From the IMG/VR virus record IMGVR_UViG_3300009103_001934, positions 114,488 through 178,487 of that record: 64,000 bases of DNA, one strand, 5' to 3'. Source of the DNA: a virus. The translations under genes were made by a program, and so were the position numbers. The notes below the pieces were generated by a model that worked only from the letters and a program-made list of their open reading frames with translations, made no database searches and had not been told where the DNA came from. Of this stretch, positions 6,329-54,786 are shown piece after piece; positions within the stretch are counted from its first letter, which is position 1, and each line of letters begins with the position of its first letter.

Positions 6329-6348
6329 TGCCCTAATGTTAATTTTTT

Positions 6349-6386
6349 GCTTGACACGCCGGGACCGGTCCCGGCGCCTGTCAAGC
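6349..6386. terminator. GGGACCGGTCCC module 1, bidirectional hairpin
   Basis: GCTTGACA and TGTCAAGC bracket a perfect 20-bp palindrome, CGCCGGGACCGGTCCCGGCG. T-runs lie on both outer sides (TTTTTT before, CTTTTTTT after), so it should terminate transcription in both directions. It is followed by TTATTCACA, a DnaA-box-like nonamer (6392-6400). The interval 6401-6570 shows no gene. Confidence 0.8.
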
Positions 6387-6575
6387 TTTTTTTATTCACA
6401 GCCTGTGAGAATTTCTTAAAAAGGGGCGATTTCTCCGGTGTGAAATTCGGCGTATATAAGAAACTATTTGACCCCATACCCTGCAAAAACAGTGTCAAGC
6501 TCAAAAACAATTACCCTATATAAACGCATTTAATTAGCCTAATTAAAAAAGATGTGTGTGACGTGCATTTTTTTC

Positions 6576-7630: not shown

Positions 7631-7649
7631 GCGATTGTGGAAACTTTTT

Positions 7650-7688
7650 GCTTGACATTCGGCGGGACCGGTCCCGATTTTGTCAAGC
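7650..7688. terminator. GGGACCGGTCCC module 2, bidirectional hairpin
   Basis: GCTTGACA/TGTCAAGC arms enclose GGGACCGGTCCC at 7664-7675, with T-runs on both sides. Confidence 0.8.
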
Positions 7689-7719
7689 TTTTTTTGTGCG
7701 TTTGCGAATAACTTTCTTC

Positions 7720-8556: not shown

Positions 8557-8565
8557 TACTTTTTT

Positions 8566-8603
8566 GCTTGACATTTCGGGACCGGTCCCGCGGCTTGTCA
8601 AGC
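8566..8603. terminator. GGGACCGGTCCC module 3, bidirectional hairpin
   Basis: GCTTGACA/TGTCAAGC arms flank GGGACCGGTCCC (8578-8589), with T-runs both sides. TTATCCACA, a perfect DnaA-box sequence, follows at 8609-8617. Confidence 0.8.
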
Positions 8604-8645
8604 TTTTTTTATCCACAACCTGTGAATTATTTTTTCATTTTTTTC

Positions 8646-10069: not shown

Positions 10070-10083
10070 AAATGACATTTTTT

Positions 10084-10123
10084 GCTTGACAGCCGGCGGG
10101 ACCGGTCCCGCGAGATGTCAAGC
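10084..10123. terminator. GGGACCGGTCCC module 4, bidirectional hairpin
   Basis: GCTTGACA/TGTCAAGC arms flank GGGACCGGTCCC (10098-10109), with T-rich outer sides. Confidence 0.8.
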
Positions 10124-10145
10124 TTTTTCTTTGTTATTTTTTTAT

Positions 10146-11854: not shown

Positions 11855-11919
11855 GGAAAAAATTCAAAAACTATTAACAAAAAAAATGCAATTGTGAGCA
11901 AAAAAGACTTGACAGCCGC

Positions 11920-11951
11920 GGGACCGGTCCCGCTTATTGAGACCGAGTCTC
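11920..11951. repeat. GGGACCGGTCCC module 5 with GAGAC palindrome
   Basis: GGGACCGGTCCC at 11920-11931 follows CTTGACAG. Instead of the TGTCAAG arm seen in modules 1-4, a second palindrome GAGACCGAGTCTC follows at 11939-11951, then TGTGAATAA (11960-11968). Confidence 0.85.
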
Positions 11952-11976
11952 ACTAAAGTTGTGAATAACTTTCTCC

Positions 11977-12005
11977 TTGACAATTACATCCTTTTGTAGT
12001 ATATT
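11977..12005 (+). promoter_or_regulatory. Promoter for a leaderless gene
   Basis: TTGACA at 11977-11982 and TATATT at 12000-12005 are 17 nt apart; ATGATG follows exactly 6 nt later. Confidence 0.8.
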
Positions 12006-12011
12006 ATTTAC

Positions 12012-12200
12012 ATGATGAACGATCCATATAGCCAGATAACCAGCGGAGACCGTGACAACCTGCGTGCGGAGTTTGACGAACAAATGGCGATAATTGACGG
12101 CGCGAATAACCCTGACATGATTTGGGTTCGTGGCACCCTGCCCTATGATGATGAGGGTGTACGGTGCGGGTGCGAAGACTACCCCTGTTGTGGGCATTAG
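12012..12200 (+). CDS. Small protein with Cys-rich C-terminus
   Basis: This 62-residue acidic protein begins MMNDPYSQ and ends in a cysteine cluster (CGCEDYPCCGH) that could bind a metal. It is predicted leaderless. The next GGGACCGGTCCC module follows within 35 nt. No family is recognised. Confidence 0.65.
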   Translation: MMNDPYSQITSGDRDNLRAEFDEQMAIIDGANNPDMIWVRGTLPYDDEGVRCGCEDYPCCGH

Positions 12201-12232
12201 TAACTTGTGAGTAAAAAAGACTTGACAGCCGC

Positions 12233-12260
12233 GGGACCGGTCCCGTTGAGACTCAGTCTC
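12233..12260. repeat. GGGACCGGTCCC module 6 with GAGAC palindrome
   Basis: GGGACCGGTCCC (12233-12244) and GAGACTCAGTCTC (12248-12260) are followed by TGTGAATAA (12269-12277) and the next promoter. Confidence 0.85.
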
Positions 12261-12294
12261 ATTAAGATTGTGAATAACTTTTTGAAAAAACCGC

Positions 12295-12323
12295 TTGACT
12301 TTTTGGCATTTATGGGTTATATT
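12295..12323 (+). promoter_or_regulatory. Promoter for a leaderless gene
   Basis: TTGACT at 12295-12300 and TATATT at 12318-12323 are 17 nt apart; the ATG starts 5 nt after the -10. The TTGACTTTTTGNCATT block recurs at 14280 and 15379. Confidence 0.8.
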
Positions 12324-12328
12324 TAAGC

Positions 12329-12562
12329 ATGATTAAAACGAACATGAAAACTTACAACGTAGAGTTTACGACAGCATTCGCTGGCTCTCCGTTCGTCAAC
12401 ATCGTTCTTGAAGCCAAGGACGAAAAACAAGCTGAATGGGTTGCCCGTAACCTTTGCCGTTTCGGTTACATTAGCAACATCACAAAAACTGATGAAGTTG
12501 CTGCTTTTACCGAAGAAACTCACGCTTTTGCTTATGATGAAGATTATGAGATTTATTCATAG
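12329..12562 (+). CDS. Tiny duplicated-family protein, copy 1
   Basis: This 77-residue protein has a beta-beta-alpha-like core, YNVEFTTAF...FVNIVLEAKDEKQAEWVARN, that resembles the proteins at 14315 and 15454 (V-x-F, then an A-rich/R-rich helix). The three genes also share the same upstream promoter block, so gene and promoter were duplicated together. An acidic, aromatic C-terminal extension (YDEDYEIYS) is specific to this copy. Function is unknown. Confidence 0.7.
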   Translation: MIKTNMKTYNVEFTTAFAGSPFVNIVLEAKDEKQAEWVARNLCRFGYISNITKTDEVAAFTEETHAFAYDEDYEIYS

Positions 12563-12598
12563 GTGGGACTGCGGATGTCCCACCCAGTATGCTATACT
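12562..12598 (+). promoter_or_regulatory. Hairpin-linked extended -10 promoter, copy 1
   Basis: GGTGGGAC (12562-12569) and GTCCCACC (12577-12584) form an 8-bp palindrome; 8 nt later lies TATACT (12593-12598) with a TG extension. No -35 box is seen, so the palindrome occupies the -35 region. Confidence 0.75.
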
Positions 12599-12604
12599 AG
12601 ACGC

Positions 12605-13060
12605 ATGATAATTAAGAACGAGATGAAAGAAAAACTAAAACCACTATTTGACCTAGACGGAACCCTTATCCGCGAGGAGCGCGGCTCAGATCGCCTATTT
12701 GATTTCCTACGGCCTCACGCTATTCTTAATCTCACAGAACACGACCTCACTCCTCTCGGAGTGTTAGTCAGAGACTCAGGCAAAGAATTTGACATTCTTA
12801 CAGCACGCGGCCCAGAGAATGCGCAGTTTATCCGTATAGCTCTTGAAGCTCTCGGATTCAACGTCGGTCGAATCGTAACCGTAGGCGTAGACATTAACGA
12901 GCCAAAGGATTGGGCTAATGTTAGCAGCAAAAGAGTAGCGGCAAAGAAAATCAGAATTGCCAAATTCGTCCAAAGGAAATTGGTTGACAACGATGCTAGG
13001 AATCTGGTAGGATTAGGAGAGTTAGGAGAGCTAGTAGCTCAAGACCAAACAGAGTTTTAA
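12605..13060 (+). CDS. HAD-superfamily phosphatase
   Basis: This 151-residue protein has HAD motif I PLFDLDGTLI (Asp16 and Asp18), motif II in DILTARGPEN, a lysine-rich region (AAKKIRIAKF) and a LVDNDARN motif that can supply the acidic metal ligands. HAD phosphatases form a phospho-aspartate intermediate; phage versions act on nucleotides or nucleic-acid ends. The start at 12605 is used because the upstream in-frame codons translate the hairpin promoter. It is exactly 6 nt after the -10, so leaderless. Confidence 0.8.
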   Translation: MIIKNEMKEKLKPLFDLDGTLIREERGSDRLFDFLRPHAILNLTEHDLTPLGVLVRDSGKEFDILTARGPENAQFIRIALEALGFNVGRIVTVGVDINEPKDWANVSSKRVAAKKIRIAKFVQRKLVDNDARNLVGLGELGELVAQDQTEF

Positions 13061-13061
13061 G

Positions 13062-13316
13062 ATGATGAATAAGATTATTACAATTAAAGCAAAAGCCAAC
13101 GCAAGCCGGCGCACTAAAAACCGCATTCGTGGATTTGGCCCACGTTTCATCGTAGAGAAGAAACATGACCTTAATGACATCATGGCCCTTATCGGCAAGC
13201 GTGATTCAGAGTCTTGGTTGCTGCGCGAAGTGGGCGGCCCAGACGGTGATCCGTGGTTTGGCTGGCTGCCAGCTAATGAATTTGAAATTGTTGAAACTGA
13301 AGGATTTTGGTCTTGA
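13062..13316 (+). CDS. Small basic hypothetical protein
   Basis: This 84-residue protein begins MMNK with a basic stretch (KAKANASRRTKNRIRGFGPR) and ends in an aromatic, Gly/Pro-rich part (GGPDGDPWFGWLPANEFEIV). The start is 1 nt after the HAD gene stop, so the two are co-transcribed. Its stop codon overlaps the TTGACA box of the next promoter. No family is recognised. Confidence 0.7.
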   Translation: MMNKIITIKAKANASRRTKNRIRGFGPRFIVEKKHDLNDIMALIGKRDSESWLLREVGGPDGDPWFGWLPANEFEIVETEGFWS

Positions 13317-13341
13317 CATTTAATCGGAAAACCCATATACT
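13313..13341 (+). promoter_or_regulatory. Promoter overlapping a stop codon
   Basis: TTGACA at 13313-13318 contains the TGA stop of the preceding gene; TATACT at 13336-13341 is 17 nt on. ATGATG follows 8 nt later. Confidence 0.8.
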
Positions 13342-13349
13342 ATAAACAG

Positions 13350-13574
13350 ATGATGAAGAAACACAACATACAAAACGCAAGCGTATTTGCCACAAAGCAA
13401 TTACGCGACAATCTTAACAAAGTGCTTACTCGCAAAGAGCGGCAACAACTTGACGAAAAAGATGCTAAAACAAAATGGTATCTTGAATTGATGATTGCTG
13501 CTTGTCTCGGTGCTGCTCTTGCCCTTGGCTTTGTAGTCGCTCACGGTATGCTCACAACTGACTGGACTTGGTAA
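13350..13574 (+). CDS. Single-pass membrane protein
   Basis: This 74-residue protein has a basic, helical N-terminal half (LNKVLTRKERQQLDEKDAK) and a C-terminal transmembrane segment (LMIAACLGAALALGFVVAHG). It is the first of three consecutive small membrane protein genes in one transcript. The layout would fit a holin-like or membrane-modifying set, but there is no direct evidence. Confidence 0.7.
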   Translation: MMKKHNIQNASVFATKQLRDNLNKVLTRKERQQLDEKDAKTKWYLELMIAACLGAALALGFVVAHGMLTTDWTW

Positions 13575-13580
13575 AGAACG

Positions 13581-13691
13581 ATGAAAACACTATTCGAAGC
13601 AATTGACTCCCTTGTGATGCCACTCACATTCTTTATTATGATGCACCTTGTTGTGCTTTACATTATTATTCCTTTAATTATTTGGCTTTAA
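13581..13691 (+). CDS. 36-residue membrane microprotein
   Basis: The ORF begins 6 nt after the previous stop and encodes MKTLFEAIDSLVMP followed by a 22-residue hydrophobic stretch (LTFFIMMHLVVLYIIIP) ending in LIIWL. It is very likely membrane-inserted. No family is recognised. Confidence 0.6.
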   Translation: MKTLFEAIDSLVMPLTFFIMMHLVVLYIIIPLIIWL

Positions 13692-13705
13692 CAAAAAACA
13701 AACCT

Positions 13706-13822
13706 ATGCAAACTAAAACAAAAAAAGATTGGACACAAGCTCTGTTTGTGGGAAACATCGCAACCGTAACATTTATTGTCGGCGTGATCGTCGGTCAATT
13801 TGTCAAAGTCATAATTATGTGA
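13706..13822 (+). CDS. 38-residue membrane microprotein
   Basis: MQTKTKKDWTQALFVGNIA is followed by a hydrophobic segment (TVTFIVGVIVGQFVKVIIM). A basic N-terminus and one membrane span are visible. It is 14 nt after the previous microprotein gene, apparently in the same operon. Confidence 0.6.
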   Translation: MQTKTKKDWTQALFVGNIATVTFIVGVIVGQFVKVIIM

Positions 13823-13830
13823 TTTTGATA

Positions 13831-13901
13831 GGGGTCTGAAAACCTACGCTTGAGCCTTTGAGGTCTGACCTGTAGCGACACAGCGTGATGACTACGACCC
13901 C
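13831..13901 (+). other. Structured element after the membrane operon
   Basis: GGGGTC (13831) pairs with GACCCC (13896), enclosing GTAG/CTAC and AGGT/ACCT hairpins, giving a branched fold of about 70 nt. A run of C/G blocks (CCCCCTAGGGGTACCCCCC) follows. It could be a complex terminator or a small RNA. Confidence 0.35.
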
Positions 13902-13956
13902 ACCCCCCTAGGGGTACCCCCCGGGGGGGGTCTAAACTTTTTGCTTGACATCCGGC

Positions 13957-13988
13957 GGGACCGGTCCCGCTTATTGCGACTCGGTCTC
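13957..13988. repeat. GGGACCGGTCCC module 7
   Basis: GGGACCGGTCCC at 13957-13968 is preceded by GCTTGACA and followed by a degenerate GAGAC-type element, GCGACTCGGTCTC (13976-13988). Confidence 0.85.
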
Positions 13989-14015
13989 AGTAAAACTTTT
14001 TTTAATTATCTTATG

Positions 14016-14052
14016 GGTAGGACTGCGGATGTCCCACCCTCTGTGCTATACT
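14016..14052 (+). promoter_or_regulatory. Hairpin-linked extended -10 promoter, copy 2
   Basis: GGTAGGAC (14016-14023)/GTCCCACC (14031-14038) is followed exactly 8 nt later by TATACT (14047-14052) with a TG extension. The ATG is 6 nt further on. Confidence 0.75.
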
Positions 14053-14058
14053 ATACGC

Positions 14059-14262
14059 ATGATGATTAAAGAAGATAAGAAACCAACATACACCCTCTGG
14101 AACGGTGTGCAACTCATCGCCACCTACCCACACACACGTGAGGGCATGAATGCAGCCATGCTACGTGCATCAGAGCTAGGCATAGGGGCCAAGCTATACT
14201 CATCACGTGATGACCTAGTGTGGAGCGCACGCATGGCAGATGACATGATGGATTGTGAATAA
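14059..14262 (+). CDS. Small hypothetical protein
   Basis: This 67-residue protein, MMIKEDKKPTYTLWNGVQLI, is mixed alpha/beta. The start at 14059 is 6 nt after the -10 (leaderless); the upstream in-frame ATG lies in the palindrome module and is rejected. Its last codons encode CE-stop within TGTGAATAA, so the DnaA-box-like nonamer of the next module overlaps the end of this gene. Confidence 0.7.
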   Translation: MMIKEDKKPTYTLWNGVQLIATYPHTREGMNAAMLRASELGIGAKLYSSRDDLVWSARMADDMMDCE

Positions 14263-14279
14263 CTTTCTTAAAAAACCGC

Positions 14280-14308
14280 TTGACTTTTTGACATTAATGA
14301 GCTATATT
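14280..14308 (+). promoter_or_regulatory. Promoter for a leaderless gene
   Basis: TTGACT at 14280-14285 and TATATT at 14303-14308 are 17 nt apart; ATG follows exactly 6 nt later. Confidence 0.8.
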
Positions 14309-14314
14309 ATACGT

Positions 14315-14491
14315 ATGTTAAACAAGATAGAAAGCATATTCACAGTAACATTCACCAACGACAGTACCGTGTTCATTAAGGCAAGGGATAGGGGACACGC
14401 GCGCCGCATCGTGGAGCGGAACGGTAGCACATGGACACGCGCTGATGAGAGCGTTGAAATGGTGATTAAAAAAATTGAAAGAAGTTGCTAG
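14315..14491 (+). CDS. Tiny duplicated-family protein, copy 2
   Basis: This 58-residue protein, MLNKIESIFTVTFTNDSTVF then IKARDRGHARRIVERN, is clearly paralogous to the 15454 product (shared NDSTVFI-A-R and HARRIVE) and more distantly to 12329. The start at 14315 is fixed by the promoter 6 nt before it. A larger minus-strand open frame crosses here but lacks any start signal. The predicted fold is two strands and a helix. Function is unknown. Confidence 0.75.
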   Translation: MLNKIESIFTVTFTNDSTVFIKARDRGHARRIVERNGSTWTRADESVEMVIKKIERSC

Positions 14492-14527
14492 GTAGGACAG
14501 CAGATGTCCCACCTCGTATGCTATACT
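14491..14527 (+). promoter_or_regulatory. Hairpin-linked extended -10 promoter, copy 3
   Basis: GGTAGGAC (14491-14498)/GTCCCACC (14506-14513), 8 nt, then TATACT (14522-14527) with TG extension. The hairpin overlaps the stop of the preceding gene. Confidence 0.75.
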
Positions 14528-14545
14528 AGACGCAGTTAAAAGATT

Positions 14546-14836
14546 ATGGAAAAGAACAAGATGAACGAAACGATGACAGTAGAACAAGAAGCCCAACTCC
14601 TCCTTAATCAGGATGTACGCGTGACATTCGCGCAAAGCCAATTTTGGAACTGCACAGGTCGTGTGCGTAACATCATGGCCGATGGTCGCACACTTGAGAT
14701 TGACCTTGATTGGGACGGCAAGACCGTTCTTCTCGATGTCACCTTCGTGGGTGAGATTCAAGAGCGGACACAGTTCGCCAAGACCGAGCAAAGCCTCGGC
14801 CCAATCGCTAACAGTGTTGTAAAGTCTACCCTTTAA
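14546..14836 (+). CDS. Small hypothetical protein
   Basis: This 96-residue protein, MEKNKMNETMTVEQEAQLLL, has a helical N-terminus and a beta-rich core (VRVTFAQSQFWNCTGRVRNI, TLEIDLDWDGKTVLLDVTFV) like a small barrel. The leader GCAGTTAAAAGATT before the ATG is shared with the gene at 15705. It appears to head an operon with 14838 and 15085. No family is recognised. Confidence 0.75.
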   Translation: MEKNKMNETMTVEQEAQLLLNQDVRVTFAQSQFWNCTGRVRNIMADGRTLEIDLDWDGKTVLLDVTFVGEIQERTQFAKTEQSLGPIANSVVKSTL

Positions 14837-14837
14837 G

Positions 14838-15080
14838 ATGAACTACCATTATCAATTCGGCATGATTAAAACCACATCAAACAAAGAGCCTGTTGTAACT
14901 GATTTAGATAGTCAGTTTATGACTATCGACGGAGTGCTGCACTCTATTATCAGCCATCATTCATTTGATGATTTTGGTGCTACGTTGGACACTTTCAAAG
15001 TGATTAACTACGCTGGAACCATTCGAGAGATTTACTCTTTTGATGAGTGCGAAACATTCACCTTTGACAACGGAGAATAA
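14838..15080 (+). CDS. Small hypothetical protein
   Basis: This 80-residue acidic protein (IDGVLHSIISHHSFDDFG) starts 1 nt after the preceding stop, implying co-translation. It has no recognised motif. Confidence 0.7.
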   Translation: MNYHYQFGMIKTTSNKEPVVTDLDSQFMTIDGVLHSIISHHSFDDFGATLDTFKVINYAGTIREIYSFDECETFTFDNGE

Positions 15081-15084
15081 TTAT

Positions 15085-15261
15085 ATGTATAATCCAGAAA
15101 ACCTTAAAGTAGGCGACAGAGTAAAGTCAACGGCCAGTGGTTGGGTTGGCGTAGTAGTCGGCGAAGGCTTTGGCAAACCAGACAAGGGAATGCTGCGCGT
15201 TCAACTCTCTTTCGGATTGACGCACGACTTTTATCCTAGCCACTTGGAAAAGATTAACTAA
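15085..15261 (+). CDS. Small SH3-like barrel protein
   Basis: This 58-residue protein, MYNPENLKVGDRVKSTASGW then VGVVVGEGF, ends DFYPSHLEKIN. GDRV...GWVGVV is typical of short SH3-like/KOW-like barrels and resembles the 11351 product. GGAG 9 nt before the ATG at 15085 favours that start over an upstream ATG inside the previous gene. Confidence 0.7.
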   Translation: MYNPENLKVGDRVKSTASGWVGVVVGEGFGKPDKGMLRVQLSFGLTHDFYPSHLEKIN

Positions 15262-15312
15262 AAGAGCCTACCCCCTAGGGGGGGTGTGAATAACTTTTGC
15301 TTGACAGCCGGC

Positions 15313-15344
15313 GGGACCGGTCCCGCTTATTGAGACTTAGTCTC
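15313..15344. repeat. GGGACCGGTCCC module 8 with GAGAC palindrome
   Basis: GGGACCGGTCCC (15313-15324) and GAGACTTAGTCTC (15332-15344) are flanked on both sides by TGTGAATAA (15285-15293 and 15353-15361). Confidence 0.85.
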
Positions 15345-15378
15345 ATTCCAATTGTGAATAACTTTTTCATTTTAGGGG

Positions 15379-15407
15379 TTGACTTTTTGTCATTTTTGTG
15401 GCATACT
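15379..15407 (+). promoter_or_regulatory. sigma70-type promoter
   Basis: TTGACT at 15379-15384 and CATACT at 15402-15407 are 17 nt apart. An in-frame TTG lies 7 nt after the -10, and the better ATG is at 15454. Confidence 0.7.
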
Positions 15408-15453
15408 ATATGTATTGAGAGTGAGAGAAACAAAAGAAGAAACTAAAAAGATT

Positions 15454-15648
15454 ATGAGAAACCTACCAGCACTACCAGAGATGACCTTCGAGGTTACATT
15501 TGACAACGACAGCACGGTGTTCATTAGCGCACGCAACAAAGAACACGCTCGCCGCATCGTGGAAAACAACAAAGGATTTAGCCTGTGGCGTAGAAGAGAC
15601 GACGAAGAGTGGCAAAAGCGCACCATAAAAAAGATTGAGATAAATTAA
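15454..15648 (+). CDS. Tiny duplicated-family protein, copy 3
   Basis: This 64-residue protein, MRNLPALPEMTFEVTFDNDS then TVFISARNKEHARRIVEN, is a paralogue of the 14315 product. A leaderless TTG start at 15415 would add 13 residues (LRVRETKEETKKI) and cannot be excluded. Promoter block, gene and the following hairpin promoter repeat the 14254-14527 arrangement. Confidence 0.75.
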   Translation: MRNLPALPEMTFEVTFDNDSTVFISARNKEHARRIVENNKGFSLWRRRDDEEWQKRTIKKIEIN

Positions 15649-15649
15649 T

Positions 15650-15686
15650 GGTAGGACTACAGATGTCCCACCCTATGTGATATACT
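15650..15686 (+). promoter_or_regulatory. Hairpin-linked extended -10 promoter, copy 4
   Basis: GGTAGGAC (15650-15657)/GTCCCACC (15665-15672), 8 nt, then TATACT (15681-15686). Confidence 0.75.
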
Positions 15687-15704
15687 AGACGCAGTTAAAT
15701 GATT

Positions 15705-16130
15705 ATGAAAGAACAAAACACTATGAAAGCAAACAACCTAATCCTCGGAGCGGTTTACATCAACGCAACCACTGGCCAGCCTTGCCGCTTGGTCAACATC
15801 GTATCCTGCCAAGGTGTTTGGCTTGAGTCCTATGATGGACAAGGGTATGGTGAACTAGTCAGCTTCGATGATTGCCACTATGCAAGTCAGGATGAAGTGG
15901 AAGATTATCTTGAGGACTTGCGCGTTTACACCGCAAGCAACAAAGCACCATCTCACAAGTCACCAGTGAGCTATGATGAAGGATTAGACGAGGATGAAAT
16001 TGCAAGCTATGAAAGCAAGCATGACATCACACCGAACACTTCCTCGCGCGTTAAGAACTACGACACGTATTGGAACGTGCAAGGTTACTACGAGGACAGC
16101 TACGGCAACGACATCCGTTGCAGGGATTAA
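15705..16130 (+). CDS. Hypothetical acidic protein
   Basis: This 141-residue protein has an N-terminal barrel-like part (NLILGAVYINATTGQPCRLV) and an acidic, Tyr/Asn-rich C-terminal half (YDEGLDEDEIASYESKHD). The ATG at 15705 aligns with the start of 14546 behind the identical promoter; an ATG at 15699 is also in frame. It is the last gene of the early-type block before the strand switch. No family is recognised. Confidence 0.7.
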   Translation: MKEQNTMKANNLILGAVYINATTGQPCRLVNIVSCQGVWLESYDGQGYGELVSFDDCHYASQDEVEDYLEDLRVYTASNKAPSHKSPVSYDEGLDEDEIASYESKHDITPNTSSRVKNYDTYWNVQGYYEDSYGNDIRCRD

Positions 16131-22433: not shown

Positions 22434-23404
22434 ATTTACTAATTACAGGTGGCGCGGGGTTCATAGGGACCAATTTTGTTAAGATGATGCTCAAAAAAAG
22501 GGCTGGTCAAAAATTAATGGTTGTTATGGATAGCTTAACCTACGCTTCGGACTACAAAAACATTAAAGAAGATATTTACGATCATCCCAAATTAAAATTT
22601 GCAAATGTTGATATAAGAGACTCTAGATATGTAAACGCTACGTTTGAAAAATATGGTATAACTCATGTTGTTCATTTTGCTGCAGAATCTCACGTCGATA
22701 ATTCTATCCTTGGCCCAAAAACGTTTATCGAAACAAATGTGCTAGGAACGCTTAACCTTTTAGAGGCGGCGAAGACATACCAAGTAGAAAGATTCCATCA
22801 CATTTCCACAGACGAAGTGTTCGGCCACTTGGGTGACAAAGGTAAGTTCTCAGAAAATACCCCTTATGCTCCTAGGAACCCATATTCTGCTTCTAAGGCG
22901 GCTTCTGATCATTTGGTTAGATCATACTACTATACCTATGAACTGCCCGTAACGATATCAAACTGCTCCAATAACTACGGTCCCTATCAGCATGATGAAA
23001 AGTTTATTCCAACAATCATCAATTCGATATTGAAAAGAAAAAAGATTCCCCTATATGGACAAGGTTTAAATGTAAGAGATTGGATTCATGCAGAAGATCA
23101 CTGTAATGCGCTGTTAACTATTTTAAAAAAGGGCAAAGTGGGAGAAACATATAATATTGGTGCTGACTGCGAAATGAGAAATCTTGATGTAGTTAACTTA
23201 ATATGCGAGATCTTAAAGGTAGAGCCTGACGACTGTATAGAATTTGTCTGTGATCGATTAGGGCATGATTTTAGATATGCAATAGATTCATCTAGAATCA
23301 GAAAAGAATTGAGATGGAAGCCTAAAATTTCATTCGAAAAAGGTATACTTAAAACCGTATCTTATTACAAAAGTAAGTATGATACTGAATTTAGAGACTT
23401 ATAG
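22430..23404 (+). CDS. rmlB: dTDP-glucose 4,6-dehydratase
   Basis: This 324-residue extended SDR enzyme has GGAGFIGTNF at the N-terminus, HFAAESHVDNSI, the catalytic STDEVFGHLG (Asp/Glu), YSASKAASDHLVRSYY with Y-x3-K, and NCSNNYGPYQ. It converts dTDP-glucose to dTDP-4-keto-6-deoxyglucose. Length and motifs are typical of RmlB. With RmlA and RmlD it gives most of the dTDP-rhamnose pathway; the RmlC epimerase is not in this window. Confidence 0.95.
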   Translation: MNLLITGGAGFIGTNFVKMMLKKRAGQKLMVVMDSLTYASDYKNIKEDIYDHPKLKFANVDIRDSRYVNATFEKYGITHVVHFAAESHVDNSILGPKTFIETNVLGTLNLLEAAKTYQVERFHHISTDEVFGHLGDKGKFSENTPYAPRNPYSASKAASDHLVRSYYYTYELPVTISNCSNNYGPYQHDEKFIPTIINSILKRKKIPLYGQGLNVRDWIHAEDHCNALLTILKKGKVGETYNIGADCEMRNLDVVNLICEILKVEPDDCIEFVCDRLGHDFRYAIDSSRIRKELRWKPKISFEKGILKTVSYYKSKYDTEFRDL

Positions 23405-23405
23405 T

Positions 23406-23415
23406 GTGTAATTAT
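23406..23415 (+). promoter_or_regulatory. GTGTAATT motif (candidate phage promoter)
   Basis: GTGTAATTAT lies just before the ATG of phoH at 23421. Confidence 0.5.
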
Positions 23416-23420
23416 AATTA

Positions 23421-24212
23421 ATGCCTACTAAGAAGACTAATTCTGATGGTAAGGTTAAGATCCGACGCGACCGAGAGTTTGCAGAACATCTAAACGAAAC
23501 TGAAAACAAATTTGTCCCAGATAATCCAATCAAAAGACAAATTAAAATTAACCAACTACCGTGGACTGATAAGCAAAAAGAGTTTTTCCGAATAGCGCTA
23601 GATTATCATACTAAGATAGTCTTTGTTAATGGACCAGCGGGTACATCTAAGACTTTGTTATCGGTCTATTGTGGATTACAGCTTTTAAATATGAAAGCTA
23701 TCTCAGATATTATGTATTTGAGATCCGCAGTAGAAAGTTCTGAATCTAAACTGGGTTTTCTCCCGGGGTCAGCAGACGATAAACTAAAATTTTATAACTT
23801 GCCATTTTTAGATAAATTAGACGAGCTACTAATAACTACCAAGCCCGAAAAGCTAGAAGAGGAAAAAAGAGTTTCCATGTTTCCAGTAAACTTCGCAAGA
23901 GGAATGAACTGGAAAGGTAAATGCATTATTTTAGATGAAGCGCAAAACTCTACCATGAAGGAGATTACGACCGTTCTTACTAGAATGGGTGAGGGGAGCA
24001 GATGCTTTGTATTGGCGGACCCTATGCAAACCGACTTGAGAGCAGACTATCAACAGGGAGCCTTCGAAAAGTTAGGGGGTATATTCTCCGATGAGGAAAG
24101 CATGAATATGGGGATTTATAATTTTAACTTTACTGAAGAAGATATTATGAGGTCTGAATTAGTTAAGTTTATCGTTCGAAAAATCAACCGAGAGGGAGAG
24201 AACCATGAGTGA
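23421..24212 (+). CDS. phoH: PhoH-like ATPase
   Basis: This 263-residue protein has Walker A GPAGTSKT (71-78), an RSAVESSESKLGFLPGSADDK segment typical of PhoH, Walker B CIILDEAQN (about 168-176) and VLADPMQTD. PhoH-like ATPases are very common in marine and freshwater phages; proposed roles include RNA metabolism and phosphate-stress functions, but these are not settled. The end overlaps clpP by 8 nt. Confidence 0.9.
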   Translation: MPTKKTNSDGKVKIRRDREFAEHLNETENKFVPDNPIKRQIKINQLPWTDKQKEFFRIALDYHTKIVFVNGPAGTSKTLLSVYCGLQLLNMKAISDIMYLRSAVESSESKLGFLPGSADDKLKFYNLPFLDKLDELLITTKPEKLEEEKRVSMFPVNFARGMNWKGKCIILDEAQNSTMKEITTVLTRMGEGSRCFVLADPMQTDLRADYQQGAFEKLGGIFSDEESMNMGIYNFNFTEEDIMRSELVKFIVRKINREGENHE

Positions 24213-49737: not shown

Positions 49738-50094
49738 ATGGCTGACGAAAGAACATGGAACAAAAAGAAGAAAATAGAGGAAATAGCCAACTATATTATA
49801 AATAATATTACCATGGCTGAAGTTACCCATATTTTGATAGAAAGAGCCACGGAAACAGCAACAGAAATAGTAGAAAATGATTTGCCAGCAGAGGAGTATA
49901 GGGCGATCATCTTTTACAAGAAAAAAAGGAAAAAAAATAACTCTAAATTAATTAATAATATCAAAAACTCAGTTAACTCATTTTGGAGTACTGTAAAGTC
50001 AAAATTTACTAAAAAAGAAGAAGATCCATTATCTAAATTAATTAAACGAGACGGATTCACCACCAAGAAGACAAGAGACGAAGATGGCACATAG
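49738..50094 (+). CDS. Small basic hypothetical protein
   Basis: This 118-residue protein has a helical N-terminal half ([20 protein letters not shown]) and a Lys-rich second half ([20 protein letters not shown]). It overlaps the first collagen-like fibre gene by 11 nt and could be a small partner of it. No family is recognised. Confidence 0.65.
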
Positions 50095-51103
50095 AAAAAA
50101 TTTATTTTTAGGTAACATTCTCGGCGCTACGGGACCCACAGGGCCTTCGGGGCCGACCGGGCCCTCGGGGCCGAGCGGAGCCACGGGACCTGCGGGAGGT
50201 CCCACGGGCCCTACCGGGCCGACCGGGGCCACGGGACCTATTGGTCCGACAGGCGTTCGAGGCGTTTCGGGTTATGGATTCGTTACTTCTTCCAGCGACT
50301 CCATAGACCTTGATGCCGCTTCCCTTGGTACATCAATAACAAAAAACATAGAGTCAGGATTAGCGTACCAAGCGGGCACGAGGATAAGATTCTCAAGCGA
50401 GAATTCTTCTGACTGCTTTTTTGAAGGAAAGGTACTTTCTTATACGCCCGCATCTGAAAACATTACTCTTTATATAGATTATATAAAGGGCACGTGCGCA
50501 GACGCGCAGTGGAATGTTAACCTAGCGGGAGAAGTGGGAGCGACGGGCCCTGAAGGGGCGACCGGGCCCGATGGAAGAATACTCAATACAAATTATGATA
50601 AACAATTAACATATAATGATAATGGCTCGTTAAGTTATGCGGGAGGAGTATATGATAAGAGTAATGAATATTTTGCGCTAGGTCATTTATCTCCAGAATG
50701 TATTTTAGATGTAAGTGGTAATTCAAAATTCAGAGGAAACGTAAATATTACTGGAAACTTATATGTTTCTGGACTAGGAGAATTAATTGTCGATGACTTG
50801 GCTGTTGCTCAACATAACACGGCTACTTCTGGTTACTTGGTTACAGATCCGGACAACACTGGCGTATCGATTAAATGTATTGTACCCAAAATAGAATATG
50901 AAGAATTTACGGGAGATGGAATGATCAGTGAATTTATTTTGTCTACGGCCTGCAAAGGTCCGGAGTGGCTCATCATATGGGATAGTTACGCTGGAACCCC
51001 TCGTTCTCCTACTGAATATAGTGTTAATGGGTCAACGATAACTTTTCTTGATCAACAATCTTTACCCATGGGCAAATTAACCGTTAGGCATATTATACTG
51101 TAA
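50084..51103 (+). CDS. Collagen-like fibre protein, copy 1
   Basis: This 339-residue protein opens [20 protein letters not shown], a run of Gly-x-y triplets (about 15 triplets), then a globular beta domain ([20 protein letters not shown]) and a second short collagen run ([13 protein letters not shown]), ending with a fibre-tip-like region. The same N-terminus occurs in the genes at 52997 and 53929. Triplet repeats would form a trimeric collagen-like stalk with the N-terminus attached to the tail. One-nt spacing to the next gene. Confidence 0.85.
50108..50225 (+). repeat. Collagen-coding repeat shared by three fibre genes
   Basis: The stretch starting TTAGGTAACATTCTCGG and encoding [16 protein letters not shown] recurs at about 53009 and 53946; each copy continues in GGN-rich triplets. 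Nucleotide identity between the copies at 50.1 and 53.9 kb is high. Confidence 0.85.
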
Positions 51104-52995
51104 TGGCAAAAAAAATATTCAGAGCAGAAAAAATAAAAGCCGATGAAATATGCGGGATAACTGGTAATTTTGTCGTTGATGGTAATGTAATAGCTAGCGG
51201 GGGATATGTACACGCTCAGACATATGTAAGCGGAGCTACTGGATATTTCGGAACTCTCCACGCAGATAATTTTGAACAAAATCAAGACTTAGTTTACGCT
51301 TTTAGATTCGGAGGACCCCCGATAAATGTGCCGAGTAGGCTCCCAGTTATGACCGCTACGGGTTTGAGGCTAACCGGTTGCGGCCCCGGGCAAGAAGCTC
51401 TTCCCGCTAACGGACACGTACCATATTGGTGTGATGTGTCAGAAGATCAATCTACATGGCCTGTTACTTTTGGGTTTACTGGCCTAGCTTCAGGACACAA
51501 TTTAGTTTTCGTAGAAGATCCCAGTTCATTTCCAATTGGAGAACACATTATAATTAACCCCGGAGGATTATATGGAGACGGCATTCCTCAAGAAGAGCAT
51601 ACAGTTATAGATTCAACTTATTATTGGCCCACAGGCTGTTGTAACTCTCAGGTTAGTGGATACTATAACGCCGGAAACGACGGCATATTGCATACCGATA
51701 CCATAAGTGGCGGTTATAATTTTATTAAAGGAGATCACGTAAAAATTTCAGGCTCAGAAACGGTATATACTATTACTCAAACTGGGTCGAGCGTAACAGA
51801 AGGAATTAGAACTTTAGATTTTGCTCCGGTCTTACAAGAAAATGCTTTAGACAGCGGATGCATATGCTTGGTTCAACCCACGCTACTTTTAGAAGATAAA
51901 TTACAAAATGATTATCCAACGGGAACGAAAATAGCAAACGTATTTCCTAGGACAAGCACTACGGTAGCAAAAGATAGCTGCCTGCTTAATCTTGATGGGC
52001 ATCTTGATCCTTGGTATTCAAACGCAGACCCCTATTGGGATAAGACTGTGTTAATTTTACAGTCTACCGGAGCTCATGGATCTATTAAGTTCTGTGATTC
52101 GTCTCCAGTTCTTCATTTAGTAACAGGTTTTGGAGACGTACATCAATCAAATGTACAAAGTAAATTTGGACATTCTATCTACTTCGATGGGAATGGAGAC
52201 TATTTAACTATCGGCGAAGACTCTGCGGGTTCTTTAGACCTTGACGCTAATCCATTCGCAATCGAATTTTGGTTTTATACCACTGGGCACAATTATATTG
52301 ATCCTATTACGTTATTACCTTCTTCTGGGACAATTTTATCAAAGGGATCAGTGGGTACAGATCTTTATGAAGACTTTAGTGTATTCTACGGCTCTGGCGA
52401 AAAAATTCACGTTCATGGATTAAATCAGGCCAATAGCGGGTTGGCCGCGGTATCAACGAACACCCTTGCTCTGGACACGTGGCATCATATTGCTATAGTA
52501 AGGGAGGACGCTACGCCTAATCAGATGAAGCTATACGTTAATGGTTCTGAAGAGGCCGCTTGGGCGAAAACTAATACAGTATATAATAGCACAAGGCCCC
52601 TTTACGTAGGCAAAAATGAATACAACTTAGATCAACCAACTGATTATTTTAAAGGGTACGTAGAAGAAGTAAGAATAACTAAGGGTGTTCCTCGTTACGA
52701 AGATAAAGATCGATTCACTACGTCAAATACTTTTGTTGTTCCGACTAGCCGGGCAGCCATGCCTCCGTTCAATAAGTATGTCGCGGCTAATTATGGGTGT
52801 ATAAATCAAATATGCTATAATACCCAATATTTATATTTAGAGACTTTTACTGGAATGGGGAGGTGGATGGCGACGGGCTATAGAGAGTGGTTCGTGGGAG
52901 AGTCCGGCATCGAAGTTCACATAACTGGCGCCCCTCATGGAACGGTTATCCCTAATATATTAACTCTCTCATACCCACACAATTTACCAACTTAA
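51103..52995 (+). CDS. LamG-domain fibre protein
   Basis: This 630-residue protein has an N-terminal fibre-like stretch (GNFVVDGNVIASGGYVHAQT) and a laminin-G/concanavalin-type jelly roll at about 345-545: YFDGNGDYLTIGEDSAG, NPFAIEFWFYTTGHN, TWHHIAIVRED, MKLYVNGSEEAAW and GYVEEVRITKGVPRY. LamG domains bind glycans, fitting a receptor-binding role. It sits in the fibre operon between collagen-like genes. Confidence 0.85.
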   Translation: MAKKIFRAEKIKADEICGITGNFVVDGNVIASGGYVHAQTYVSGATGYFGTLHADNFEQNQDLVYAFRFGGPPINVPSRLPVMTATGLRLTGCGPGQEALPANGHVPYWCDVSEDQSTWPVTFGFTGLASGHNLVFVEDPSSFPIGEHIIINPGGLYGDGIPQEEHTVIDSTYYWPTGCCNSQVSGYYNAGNDGILHTDTISGGYNFIKGDHVKISGSETVYTITQTGSSVTEGIRTLDFAPVLQENALDSGCICLVQPTLLLEDKLQNDYPTGTKIANVFPRTSTTVAKDSCLLNLDGHLDPWYSNADPYWDKTVLILQSTGAHGSIKFCDSSPVLHLVTGFGDVHQSNVQSKFGHSIYFDGNGDYLTIGEDSAGSLDLDANPFAIEFWFYTTGHNYIDPITLLPSSGTILSKGSVGTDLYEDFSVFYGSGEKIHVHGLNQANSGLAAVSTNTLALDTWHHIAIVREDATPNQMKLYVNGSEEAAWAKTNTVYNSTRPLYVGKNEYNLDQPTDYFKGYVEEVRITKGVPRYEDKDRFTTSNTFVVPTSRAAMPPFNKYVAANYGCINQICYNTQYLYLETFTGMGRWMATGYREWFVGESGIEVHITGAPHGTVIPNILTLSYPHNLPT

Positions 52996-52996
52996 T

Positions 52997-53929
52997 ATGG
53001 CTAATTTATATCTAGGTAACATTCTCGGAGCCACCGGTCCTACGGGCCCAAGCGGCCCTGTAGGGCCTTCCGGGGTCACGGGGGCTACGGGCCCAGCGGG
53101 CTCTCCCGGAGGCGCCACAGGGCCTTCTGGGGCCACTGGAGCCACAGGACCGAGCGGGCCAGCAGCGCCTTTATGTAATGGAACATCTGTGGATTATCTT
53201 GATCTACTAAGTGACACAACATCAGTTGGATCTACTGTTAGTCTAACGACCCAATTAGACAAATGTTGGACAGTCGGCCAACACGTTATGATTACGTCTA
53301 ATGCTGATAATAGTCAATTTTTGGTGGGATCCATAGTTTCTTATATAAATTATACTCTTACGCTTGACATCGTATATCGACAGGGAATAGTCAATCACAA
53401 CTCTTGGCTTATTAATCTTAGTGGTCCCGTAGGCGCAACTGGGCCCGTGGGAGTAGCTATAGCTGTTGATGCAGACACAATCAATTATTTTTCGGATGAT
53501 ATAGCGGGTGGATATCTCTGGACTGGAACTTGCGGTATCAGTGGGAACGATTTTAACGCTATTGATGACACCTCAAGTACGGCTTTCGCTGTTTCTTTTT
53601 CTGGAGATAACGGGGTCAGCCTTAATCCTGTCTTAAAAATAAATTACCAAGGAAATAGAACAATAATTAATAAATATTATCTTCATTTAGGTAGTGATGA
53701 AGATGTAAAATATGCGCCGAAGTATTGGCATATTGAAGCCTCAAACGATGATACTATTTGGACCACTTTGGATACAAGAGCAAATCAAAATTTTATAATA
53801 GGAAAATTTAATTATAATTTCGCTAACGGAGATCAGTATCAATATTATAGAATGAGTTTATTATCTGGAGAAGAAACTGTATATCATAAAGCTAGAATAA
53901 GTCATTTAGATTTTGTAACACAACAATAA
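52997..53929 (+). CDS. Collagen-like fibre protein, copy 2
   Basis: This 310-residue protein repeats the N-terminus [20 protein letters not shown], with about 17 Gly-x-y triplets, then a copy-1-like domain (DLLSDTTSVGSTVSLTTQLD). A distinct C-terminal part (NKYYLHLGSDEDVKYAPKYW, HIEASNDDTIWTTLDTR) resembles an F5/8-type C (discoidin) sugar-binding domain. The shared N-terminus suggests a common attachment point or assembly with copies 1 and 3. Confidence 0.85.
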   Translation: MANLYLGNILGATGPTGPSGPVGPSGVTGATGPAGSPGGATGPSGATGATGPSGPAAPLCNGTSVDYLDLLSDTTSVGSTVSLTTQLDKCWTVGQHVMITSNADNSQFLVGSIVSYINYTLTLDIVYRQGIVNHNSWLINLSGPVGATGPVGVAIAVDADTINYFSDDIAGGYLWTGTCGISGNDFNAIDDTSSTAFAVSFSGDNGVSLNPVLKINYQGNRTIINKYYLHLGSDEDVKYAPKYWHIEASNDDTIWTTLDTRANQNFIIGKFNYNFANGDQYQYYRMSLLSGEETVYHKARISHLDFVTQQ

Positions 53930-54786
53930 TGCCCGTAACACATACATATTTAGGTAATATCTTGGGAGCGACAGGGCCCACGGGGCCTTCGGGACCAACC
54001 GGGCCTTCGGGGCCGAGCGGAGCCACAGGACCTGCGGGGGGACCCACGGGCCCGACGGGCCCCTCTGGTCCTACCGGTCCCAGTGGAATTGCGCTTCTTA
54101 GTCACGGTAATACGACCGACAGTATAGATCTTTCTCATGCGTCAACCGCTGTGGGACAAACAGTTTGTGTTACTACTAATCAAGATAGGGCTTGGGGGAA
54201 CGGCGAATATATAATACTAACTTTACCGGCTGATACCTCTAACTTTTTAGTAGGGTGTGTCACTTCTTATTCGGGCACATCGCTTTGTTTCGAAGTAAAA
54301 TATCGCTCTGGAACTCAAGCTGCTGCTCTTTGGAATATTAACCCAAGCGCGGTACCGGGTCCTAGCGGACCACCGGGAGCGACTGGGCCGATTGGCATCG
54401 CTGGACCCACAGGGCCAGTTGGCGCAGCCTCTCCGCCTTCTTCTAGAGGAGCCACAAATGCTGTAATTAGTTTAGCGGGAGGAACAACAATTTTAGATTG
54501 CGGAGCTACAGAGCTTTTCAGGTGCGATCTAACATCGACCTCGACGCTTAAGCTTAATAATGCGGGTTCTGGTCAAGTTATTTACATTTTGGTTTCCTAT
54601 GCAAATGTTATGGCGGATCTTTCTTGGTCGAATCCTAGTGATGGATCTATATATTGGGAAAACGACACAATTCCATACTCCCCGAGCTTTACGGGTTATA
54701 GTAAACTATATCAATTTATTAAAATATATCACGCTACATCTAATAGTATATACTTAGCTAAGGACTTGGGAGAATTTAACATTTAG
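53929..54786 (+). CDS. Collagen-like fibre protein, copy 3
   Basis: This 285-residue protein starts [20 protein letters not shown] with about 17 triplets, the shared intermediate domain (SIDLSHASTAVGQTVCVTTN), a second collagen run (VPGPSGPPGATGPIGIAGPT) and a different C-terminal domain. At DNA level the first 100 bp match copy 1 closely, indicating duplication or recombination. It ends convergently with the minus-strand glycosyltransferase, overlapping by 11 nt. Confidence 0.85.
   Translation: MPVTHTYLGNILGATGPTGPSGPTGPSGPSGATGPAGGPTGPTGPSGPTGPSGIALLSHGNTTDSIDLSHASTAVGQTVCVTTNQDRAWGNGEYIILTLPADTSNFLVGCVTSYSGTSLCFEVKYRSGTQAAALWNINPSAVPGPSGPPGATGPIGIAGPTGPVGAASPPSSRGATNAVISLAGGTTILDCGATELFRCDLTSTSTLKLNNAGSGQVIYILVSYANVMADLSWSNPSDGSIYWENDTIPYSPSFTGYSKLYQFIKIYHATSNSIYLAKDLGEFNI

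Follow-up and report, generated by a model that had tools for sequence, protein, structure and literature searches.

Promoters with a palindromic operator over the -35 position, shared by large phages and Verrucomicrobiota, may be read by a host WYL regulator

We analyse a 64,000-nucleotide stretch of viral DNA (hereafter the window), which forms the last 64 kb of the 178,487-bp IMG/VR record IMGVR_UViG_3300009103_001934, and focus on a repeated promoter unit in which a 23-bp palindromic operator stands at a fixed distance upstream of an extended -10 element. The same unit recurs in other viral records and in chromosomes of Verrucomicrobiota, where it adjoins genes for regulators with a WYL domain and genes of anti-phage defence. 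Our reading, to which we give a probability of roughly 0.6, is that these units are activator-dependent sigma-70 promoters that would be read by a WYL regulator encoded by the host.

The window holds four units, each with the layout GGTRGGAC-N7-GTCCCACC, 8 nt, and then TATACT with TGN directly before the hexamer. All four are exact and lie on the + strand, as the original prediction of a palindrome exactly 8 nt before TATACT had it. The first operator (12562..12584; GGTGGGAC-TGCGGAT-GTCCCACC) is followed by an extended -10 at 12588..12598 (TATGCTATACT; hexamer 12593-12598), an assignment that also draws on the profile of 109 relatives given below, and by a gene of 151 amino acids (12605..13060) whose message is predicted to be leaderless because its ATG lies 12 nt past the first base of the -10; in other phage loci, too, the unit is followed by genes for similar proteins. 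The second operator (14016..14038; GGTAGGAC-TGCGGAT-GTCCCACC) and its extended -10 (14042..14052; TGTGCTATACT; hexamer 14047-14052) precede a gene of 67 amino acids at 14059..14262. The third (14491..14513; GGTAGGAC-AGCAGAT-GTCCCACC) shares its first base with the TAG stop codon (14489-14491) of the preceding gene and is followed by an extended -10 at 14517..14527 (TATGCTATACT; hexamer 14522-14527) and a gene of 96 amino acids (14546..14836). The fourth (15650..15672; GGTAGGAC-TACAGAT-GTCCCACC) begins one base past the TAA (15646-15648) of its preceding gene, with an extended -10 at 15676..15686 (TGTGATATACT; hexamer 15681-15686) and a gene of 143 amino acids (15699..16130) whose cluster is represented after the unit by 18 proteins, each from a different locus. 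The genes of units 2, 3 and 4 have no assigned function, and none of the four genes behind units in the window has a Pfam or PHROG match.

Counted over both strands, the four sites give eight operator matches, against a mean of 0.14 and a maximum of 2 in dinucleotide-preserving shuffles. The window holds no further operator match even when three mismatches are allowed, and the entire record contains these four units only and no match to the reversed pattern; the shuffles and the zero reversed-pattern matches rule out a chance origin. Neighbouring promoters at 11977, 12295, 13313 and 14280 carry TTGAC(A/T)-N17-TATANT, and two classes of promoter are therefore interleaved in this region.

The original prediction had suggested a search for the motif in relatives, and such a search recovers the same unit in viral records as well as in Verrucomicrobiota genomes. 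A scan of IMG/VR yields 80 stretches with the palindrome, and full units number about 125 in 43 of 44 whole records, with up to 7 per record and none for the reversed pattern; megablast of the phage records found no near relatives. When centres of 3-11 nt are allowed over roughly 860 kb of related records, the centre is 7 nt long in 317 of 335 matches, and the matches amount to 159 palindromes. The -10 stands at 8 nt in 152/159 of these palindromes, a figure that cannot count as independent evidence on the spacing, since units were oriented by their -10; among the seven exceptions, two are whole sites cut off at the edge of a locus, one has its -10 at 7 nt and four match only weakly. Removing units more than 80% identical leaves a non-redundant set of 109, which keep both arms, a 7-nt centre ending in AT, the 8-nt gap, TRTGN and TATACT. 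Operator positions C8, T15, G16 and C18 are invariant in this set, and A7, T17 and the TG ahead of the -10 are nearly so. The positions that carry no constraint are scrambled among the 109 units, and the fixed spacing is therefore not merely a result of recent copying.

The operator spans -43 to -21, and thus covers the -35 position. In 94 of the 109 units the hexamer 16-18 nt from the -10 fits TTGACA at two or fewer of its six positions, which, next to the TTGAC(A/T) kept by neighbouring promoters in the window, agrees with the original claim that no -35 box is present. Further upstream, the stretch from -66 to -45 is 75% A/T, compared with 48% beyond it and 56% downstream. The start codon lies exactly 12 nt past the first -10 base in 102/149 units; this is the expected transcription start, and messages from these units are therefore predicted to be leaderless. 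The genes behind phage units are short (median 78 amino acids) and fall into 46 clusters.

We take the conserved element to be a DNA site rather than an RNA hairpin because the pairing of its arms is not conserved and changes are not compensated. The sole strongly varying pair, 4-20, is Watson-Crick in 26 of the 109 units, the commonest combination being A.C (68 units), and the lack of covariation at this pair argues against the hairpin, which we reject. The two half-sites are equally degenerate (R/R), which is what a protein site would show, and no run of U follows the palindrome. A DNA-binding regulator had been proposed at the outset, and the centre of 7 and gap of 8 held in 109 divergent units speak for it as well. 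The word palindrome, also used at the outset, fits the element overall and fails at position 4, where A instead of G in 80/109 units leaves the symmetry imperfect. In 45 of the 109 units (for example in the relatives L135, L130 and L132) the TAG stop codon of the preceding gene lies inside the operator, as GG-TAG-GAC, so that a single sequence is both stop codon and predicted protein-binding site; in the other units, without an internal TAG, A and G at position 4 stand at 35:26, and the overlap with TAG accounts for much of the excess of A. We also considered the core site of a tyrosine recombinase, with inverted arms around 7 bp, and rejected it on the fixed position relative to the -10 and on centres that vary within one genome.

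The unit's bacterial copies connect it to a regulator family. Scanning 84,980 species in GTDB, we find 27 palindromes, seven of them in Verrucomicrobiota, and a -10-like hexamer at 7-8 nt follows 4/7 of these versus 0/20 of the others (Fisher P = 0.002). In two Opitutaceae the unit sits between the gene for a WYL-domain helix-turn-helix (HTH) regulator of 328 amino acids (PF08279 and PF13280) and a divergent gene of about 209 amino acids. Among 177 Opitutales genomes, all eight WYL orthologues of at least 57% identity, full or partial, have the palindrome (L263-L268, L287, L290), and so do the WYL genes of L269 (51% identity) and L271 (47%). At these ten loci the palindrome lies 24-214 nt upstream of the WYL gene and is directed away from it, towards the divergent gene; a TANNNT-like hexamer follows at 7-8 nt, and most of the loci share with the phage an ATG some 12 nt beyond that. 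Scanned with up to two mismatches, the same 177 genomes have a WYL gene next to every site with 0-1 mismatch, and in two further genomes (L378 and L380) the unit again stands with a divergent WYL gene. More distant WYL proteins and paralogues in Opitutales are mostly without a palindrome at up to three mismatches, and it is in Opitutales-type genomes only that we see the WYL regulator adjoining the unit. Over its WYL and C-terminal domains the Opitutaceae regulator matches the structures of DriD and PafBC (8tp8, E 4e-10; 6sj9, E 2e-10). We made no use of a single-sequence structure prediction of this regulator, for which the mean predicted local distance difference test score was 39.

Other bacterial copies stand before defence genes. 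Among 387 Verrucomicrobiota genomes the full pattern, -10 included, occurs 16 times, in 9 genomes, and its reversed control not once. In two genomes the unit lies 94-113 nt before cas12a in chromosomal cas12a-cas4-cas1 loci with repeat arrays (cas4 and cas1 were named by eye from gene order and sequence), and at a further Opitutaceae site hmaA, part of an Hma-type defence locus, lies 231 nt downstream. Other Verrucomicrobiota units adjoin genes for a Y-family polymerase, a HIRAN-domain protein, a NERD-helicase (divergent) and some proteins without assigned function. From these neighbours we conclude that the promoter goes with defence and DNA-damage genes. One Verrucomicrobiales metagenome-assembled genome, RYN_624 (our G046), carries at least eight related units (GGGACGGCGGATGTCCCACCCCCCCTGCTACGAT and similar) before genes without assigned function (L249, L253, L254, L377, L384, L386), which could possibly be a large regulon or a spreading cassette; an autoregulatory palindrome, sought in the order of this genome, was absent from the 30 loci inspected.

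On the phage side, searches of 16 phage records turn up no WYL domain, and 2.28 Mb of phage DNA yield no homologue; we therefore dropped the idea of a phage-encoded WYL regulator; a candidate in L143 proved to be a 13-residue tblastn match inside a 21-codon noise frame. The phage does encode a sigma-70-like factor with regions 1.2, 2, 3 and 4 (L126:14426-15283; 94426-95283 of the record) and a second protein with sigma region 4 (L123:3147-3740; record 23147-23740). The sigma-70-like factor is present in 12 of 44 records overall.

Drawing these observations together with the mechanism of DriD and PafBC, both of which the Opitutaceae regulator matches, we arrive at a WYL-activated promoter. There is good support for the family to which the operator belongs and for its position. 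In this scheme the host, rather than the phage, would encode a homodimeric WYL-domain winged-HTH regulator that binds GGTRGGAC-N7-GTCCCACC across -43 to -21 and keeps RNA polymerase at the extended -10, 8 nt further downstream; contacts of the polymerase's alpha C-terminal domains with the A/T-rich stretch (-66 to -45) would probably help. The regulator may be switched on by single-stranded DNA supplied by phage replication or DNA damage, to judge by analogy to DriD and PafBC and by homology to them in the WYL and C-terminal domains. In Verrucomicrobiota the promoter would serve defence genes and the gene that faces the regulator's own, and phages, by placing several copies before small genes, would have those genes come on when the host alarm is raised. 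The original idea that the palindrome takes the place of the -35 box gains from the WYL-HTH gene adjoining the unit in bacteria and from a geometry nearly identical to that of DriD promoters. We infer both which host the phage has and that this host carries the WYL regulator.

Several results weigh against this scheme. The phage terminase was not found in the 387 Verrucomicrobiota genomes and so does not identify the host. Nor does the tag of the phage-encoded transfer-messenger RNA (L125:10910-11327; record 70910-71327), which is unlike Opitutales tags; it is an unusual 21-residue sequence, EADEILAKFGYVEEEELQLAA, with a nearly identical counterpart in the related phage G019. In the order richest in WYL orthologues (260/293 genomes; about 45-49% identical), the palindrome is upstream of 0 of 30 inspected genes. 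The gap at bacterial host sites varies between 7 and 8 nt. By our own count the DriD site is about 2 bp closer to its -10 (11 nt from GTC to hexamer, versus 13 nt here), and the contacts with polymerase may therefore differ from those of DriD. Finally, BrxR and CapW, the characterised WYL regulators of anti-phage systems, are repressors.

That last point feeds the alternative we consider the strongest, albeit an unlikely one: the operator could be a repressor site, at which a WYL protein of this kind, or another host protein, blocks an otherwise strong extended -10 until infection or DNA damage relieves it. BrxR and CapW repress anti-phage operons in this way (PMC9122601, PMC9122588), an extended -10 could function without a -35, and a protein on the site would block polymerase. 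A repressor, however, could do without a constant gap of 8 nt and would not require every copy to lack a -35, whereas other promoters within a few hundred bases retain TTGACA; DriD-type sites at this position activate, and the BrxR site differs, lying downstream of the -10 with arms of 11 bp around a 5-bp centre. We thus favour an activator over a repressor. Somewhat less probable again is a reader made by the phage, either a non-WYL activator or the sigma-70-like factor with the palindrome as its -35 substitute. All six records above 100 kb do encode this factor, yet the unit is also found in bacterial chromosomes next to WYL genes and cas12a, a sigma factor recognises an asymmetric hexamer and not a 23-bp palindrome, and the -10 is an ordinary TATACT, so that the host WYL regulator is the likely reader.

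It is improbable, more so than either of these, that the phage copies serve mainly as decoys, which would titrate the host regulator and damp a host defence regulon with promoter activity being secondary. There are up to seven copies per record, and host sites precede cas12a and hmaA, as decoys would suggest, while the extended -10, the 8-nt gap and the start codon 12 nt on, none of which a decoy needs, are all kept. We give hardly any credence to a stem-loop in the messenger of the preceding gene, that is, a terminator or processing hairpin as in the promoter/stem-loop (PeSL) cassettes of T4-like phages, which also mediate recombination. The unit abuts the preceding stop codon in many copies and is a repeated cassette; against this stand the missing U-run, the mostly A.C, uncompensated pair 4-20 and the host copies in divergent intergenic regions.

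Host DNA-damage responses are known to employ WYL activators, and defence islands WYL repressors; we found no paper on phage promoters with a WYL operator. That the phages share their promoter type with some Verrucomicrobiota, which place it beside a WYL gene and before anti-phage genes such as cas12a, suggests that phages have wired genes to the host's own alarm switch. If so, an operator sequence can be assigned to the DNA-damage and defence alarm of this little-studied phylum, together with a regulon comprising the gene opposite the regulator, cas12a, hmaA and the Y-family polymerase, and with phages that exploit the alarm; the small genes behind phage units become candidates for counter-defence. 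A tentative extension, which we hold a little more doubtful than even, is that a widespread group of large phages runs clusters of small, possibly counter-defence genes through the same single-stranded-DNA-sensing WYL activator that raises Cas12a, Hma and other Verrucomicrobiota defences, so that both responses come on together. The 23-bp site and 8-nt gap lend themselves to simple direct tests and offer a handle in the search for further members.

The window contains other repeats. A second palindrome, GCTTGACA-N-CGGGACCGGTCCCG, occurs at 6340-6408, 7641-7696, 8557-8625, 10075-10133, 11892-11933, 12205-12245, 13934-13972 and 15290-15328; the copies at 6340 and 8557 form a strong stem (GCTTGACA ... 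TGTCAAGC) followed by T7 and are terminator-like. Repeats of GAGACTNAGTCTC and TTGTGAATAACTTT lie just upstream of promoters at 11937-12012, 12246-12321, 14253-14275 and 15330-15405, and TTGTGAATAACTTT contains a perfect TGTGNATAA, which resembles a DnaA box. A 15-mer of these repeats occurs once in a Spartobacteria genome and once in a Verrucomicrobiales genome, there adjoining a palindrome unit. Several structural genes with long collagen-like repeats lie at 50084-54786.

As to known systems, the LexA consensus of Verrucomicrobia is reportedly TGTTC-N4-GAACA (attributed to Erill, 2016), a sequence from which the operator differs. The PeSL cassettes of T4-like phages, which we know through citations of Arbiol 2010 and Comeau 2014, are said to carry a stem-loop described as a terminator; as far as those accounts go, they resemble our units as repeated intergenic promoters with an inverted repeat among small variable genes, and differ in that the palindrome here stands in for the -35 and lacks the features of a terminator. 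Promoters of phage GIL01 use operators of host LexA, a DNA-damage regulator (PMC4551915), and are similar to ours in borrowing such a site, although LexA is a repressor with a phage co-factor and here a WYL regulator with probable activation is at issue. BrxR and CapW repress BREX and CBASS operons respectively (PMC9122601, PMC9122588); they share with our system the WYL-HTH dimer and the tie to anti-phage genes, and BrxR binds an inverted repeat, with the arms, centre and position given above (PMC9122601). PafBC of mycobacteria acts by sigma adaptation, is activated by single-stranded DNA and replaces -35 recognition (PMC11804915), as the WYL regulator would here, whereas PafBC is a heterodimer with a -26 motif and our site is a symmetric 23 bp with a single 328-residue regulator, which sets it apart from the PafBC type. 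The closest likeness is to DriD of Caulobacter crescentus, a WYL activator that responds to single-stranded DNA. Its site ATACGAC-N7-GTCGTAT lies over the -35 at one fixed distance from the -10, at promoters with -35 matches of 1-2/6, a conserved G at -14 (extended -10) and alpha C-terminal domain contact, and its own gene is divergent from an operon that DriD activates (PMC12340889). Our units have the same pseudo-palindromic GAC-N7-GTC core, the same placement over the -35 at a fixed distance, the same poor -35 with an extended -10 and, in bacteria, a linked WYL-HTH gene divergent from its neighbour, and the A/T-rich upstream stretch fits an alpha C-terminal domain contact; they depart from DriD in their outer arms (GGTRG/CCACC versus ATAC/GTAT) and in their occurrence in phages and Verrucomicrobiota.

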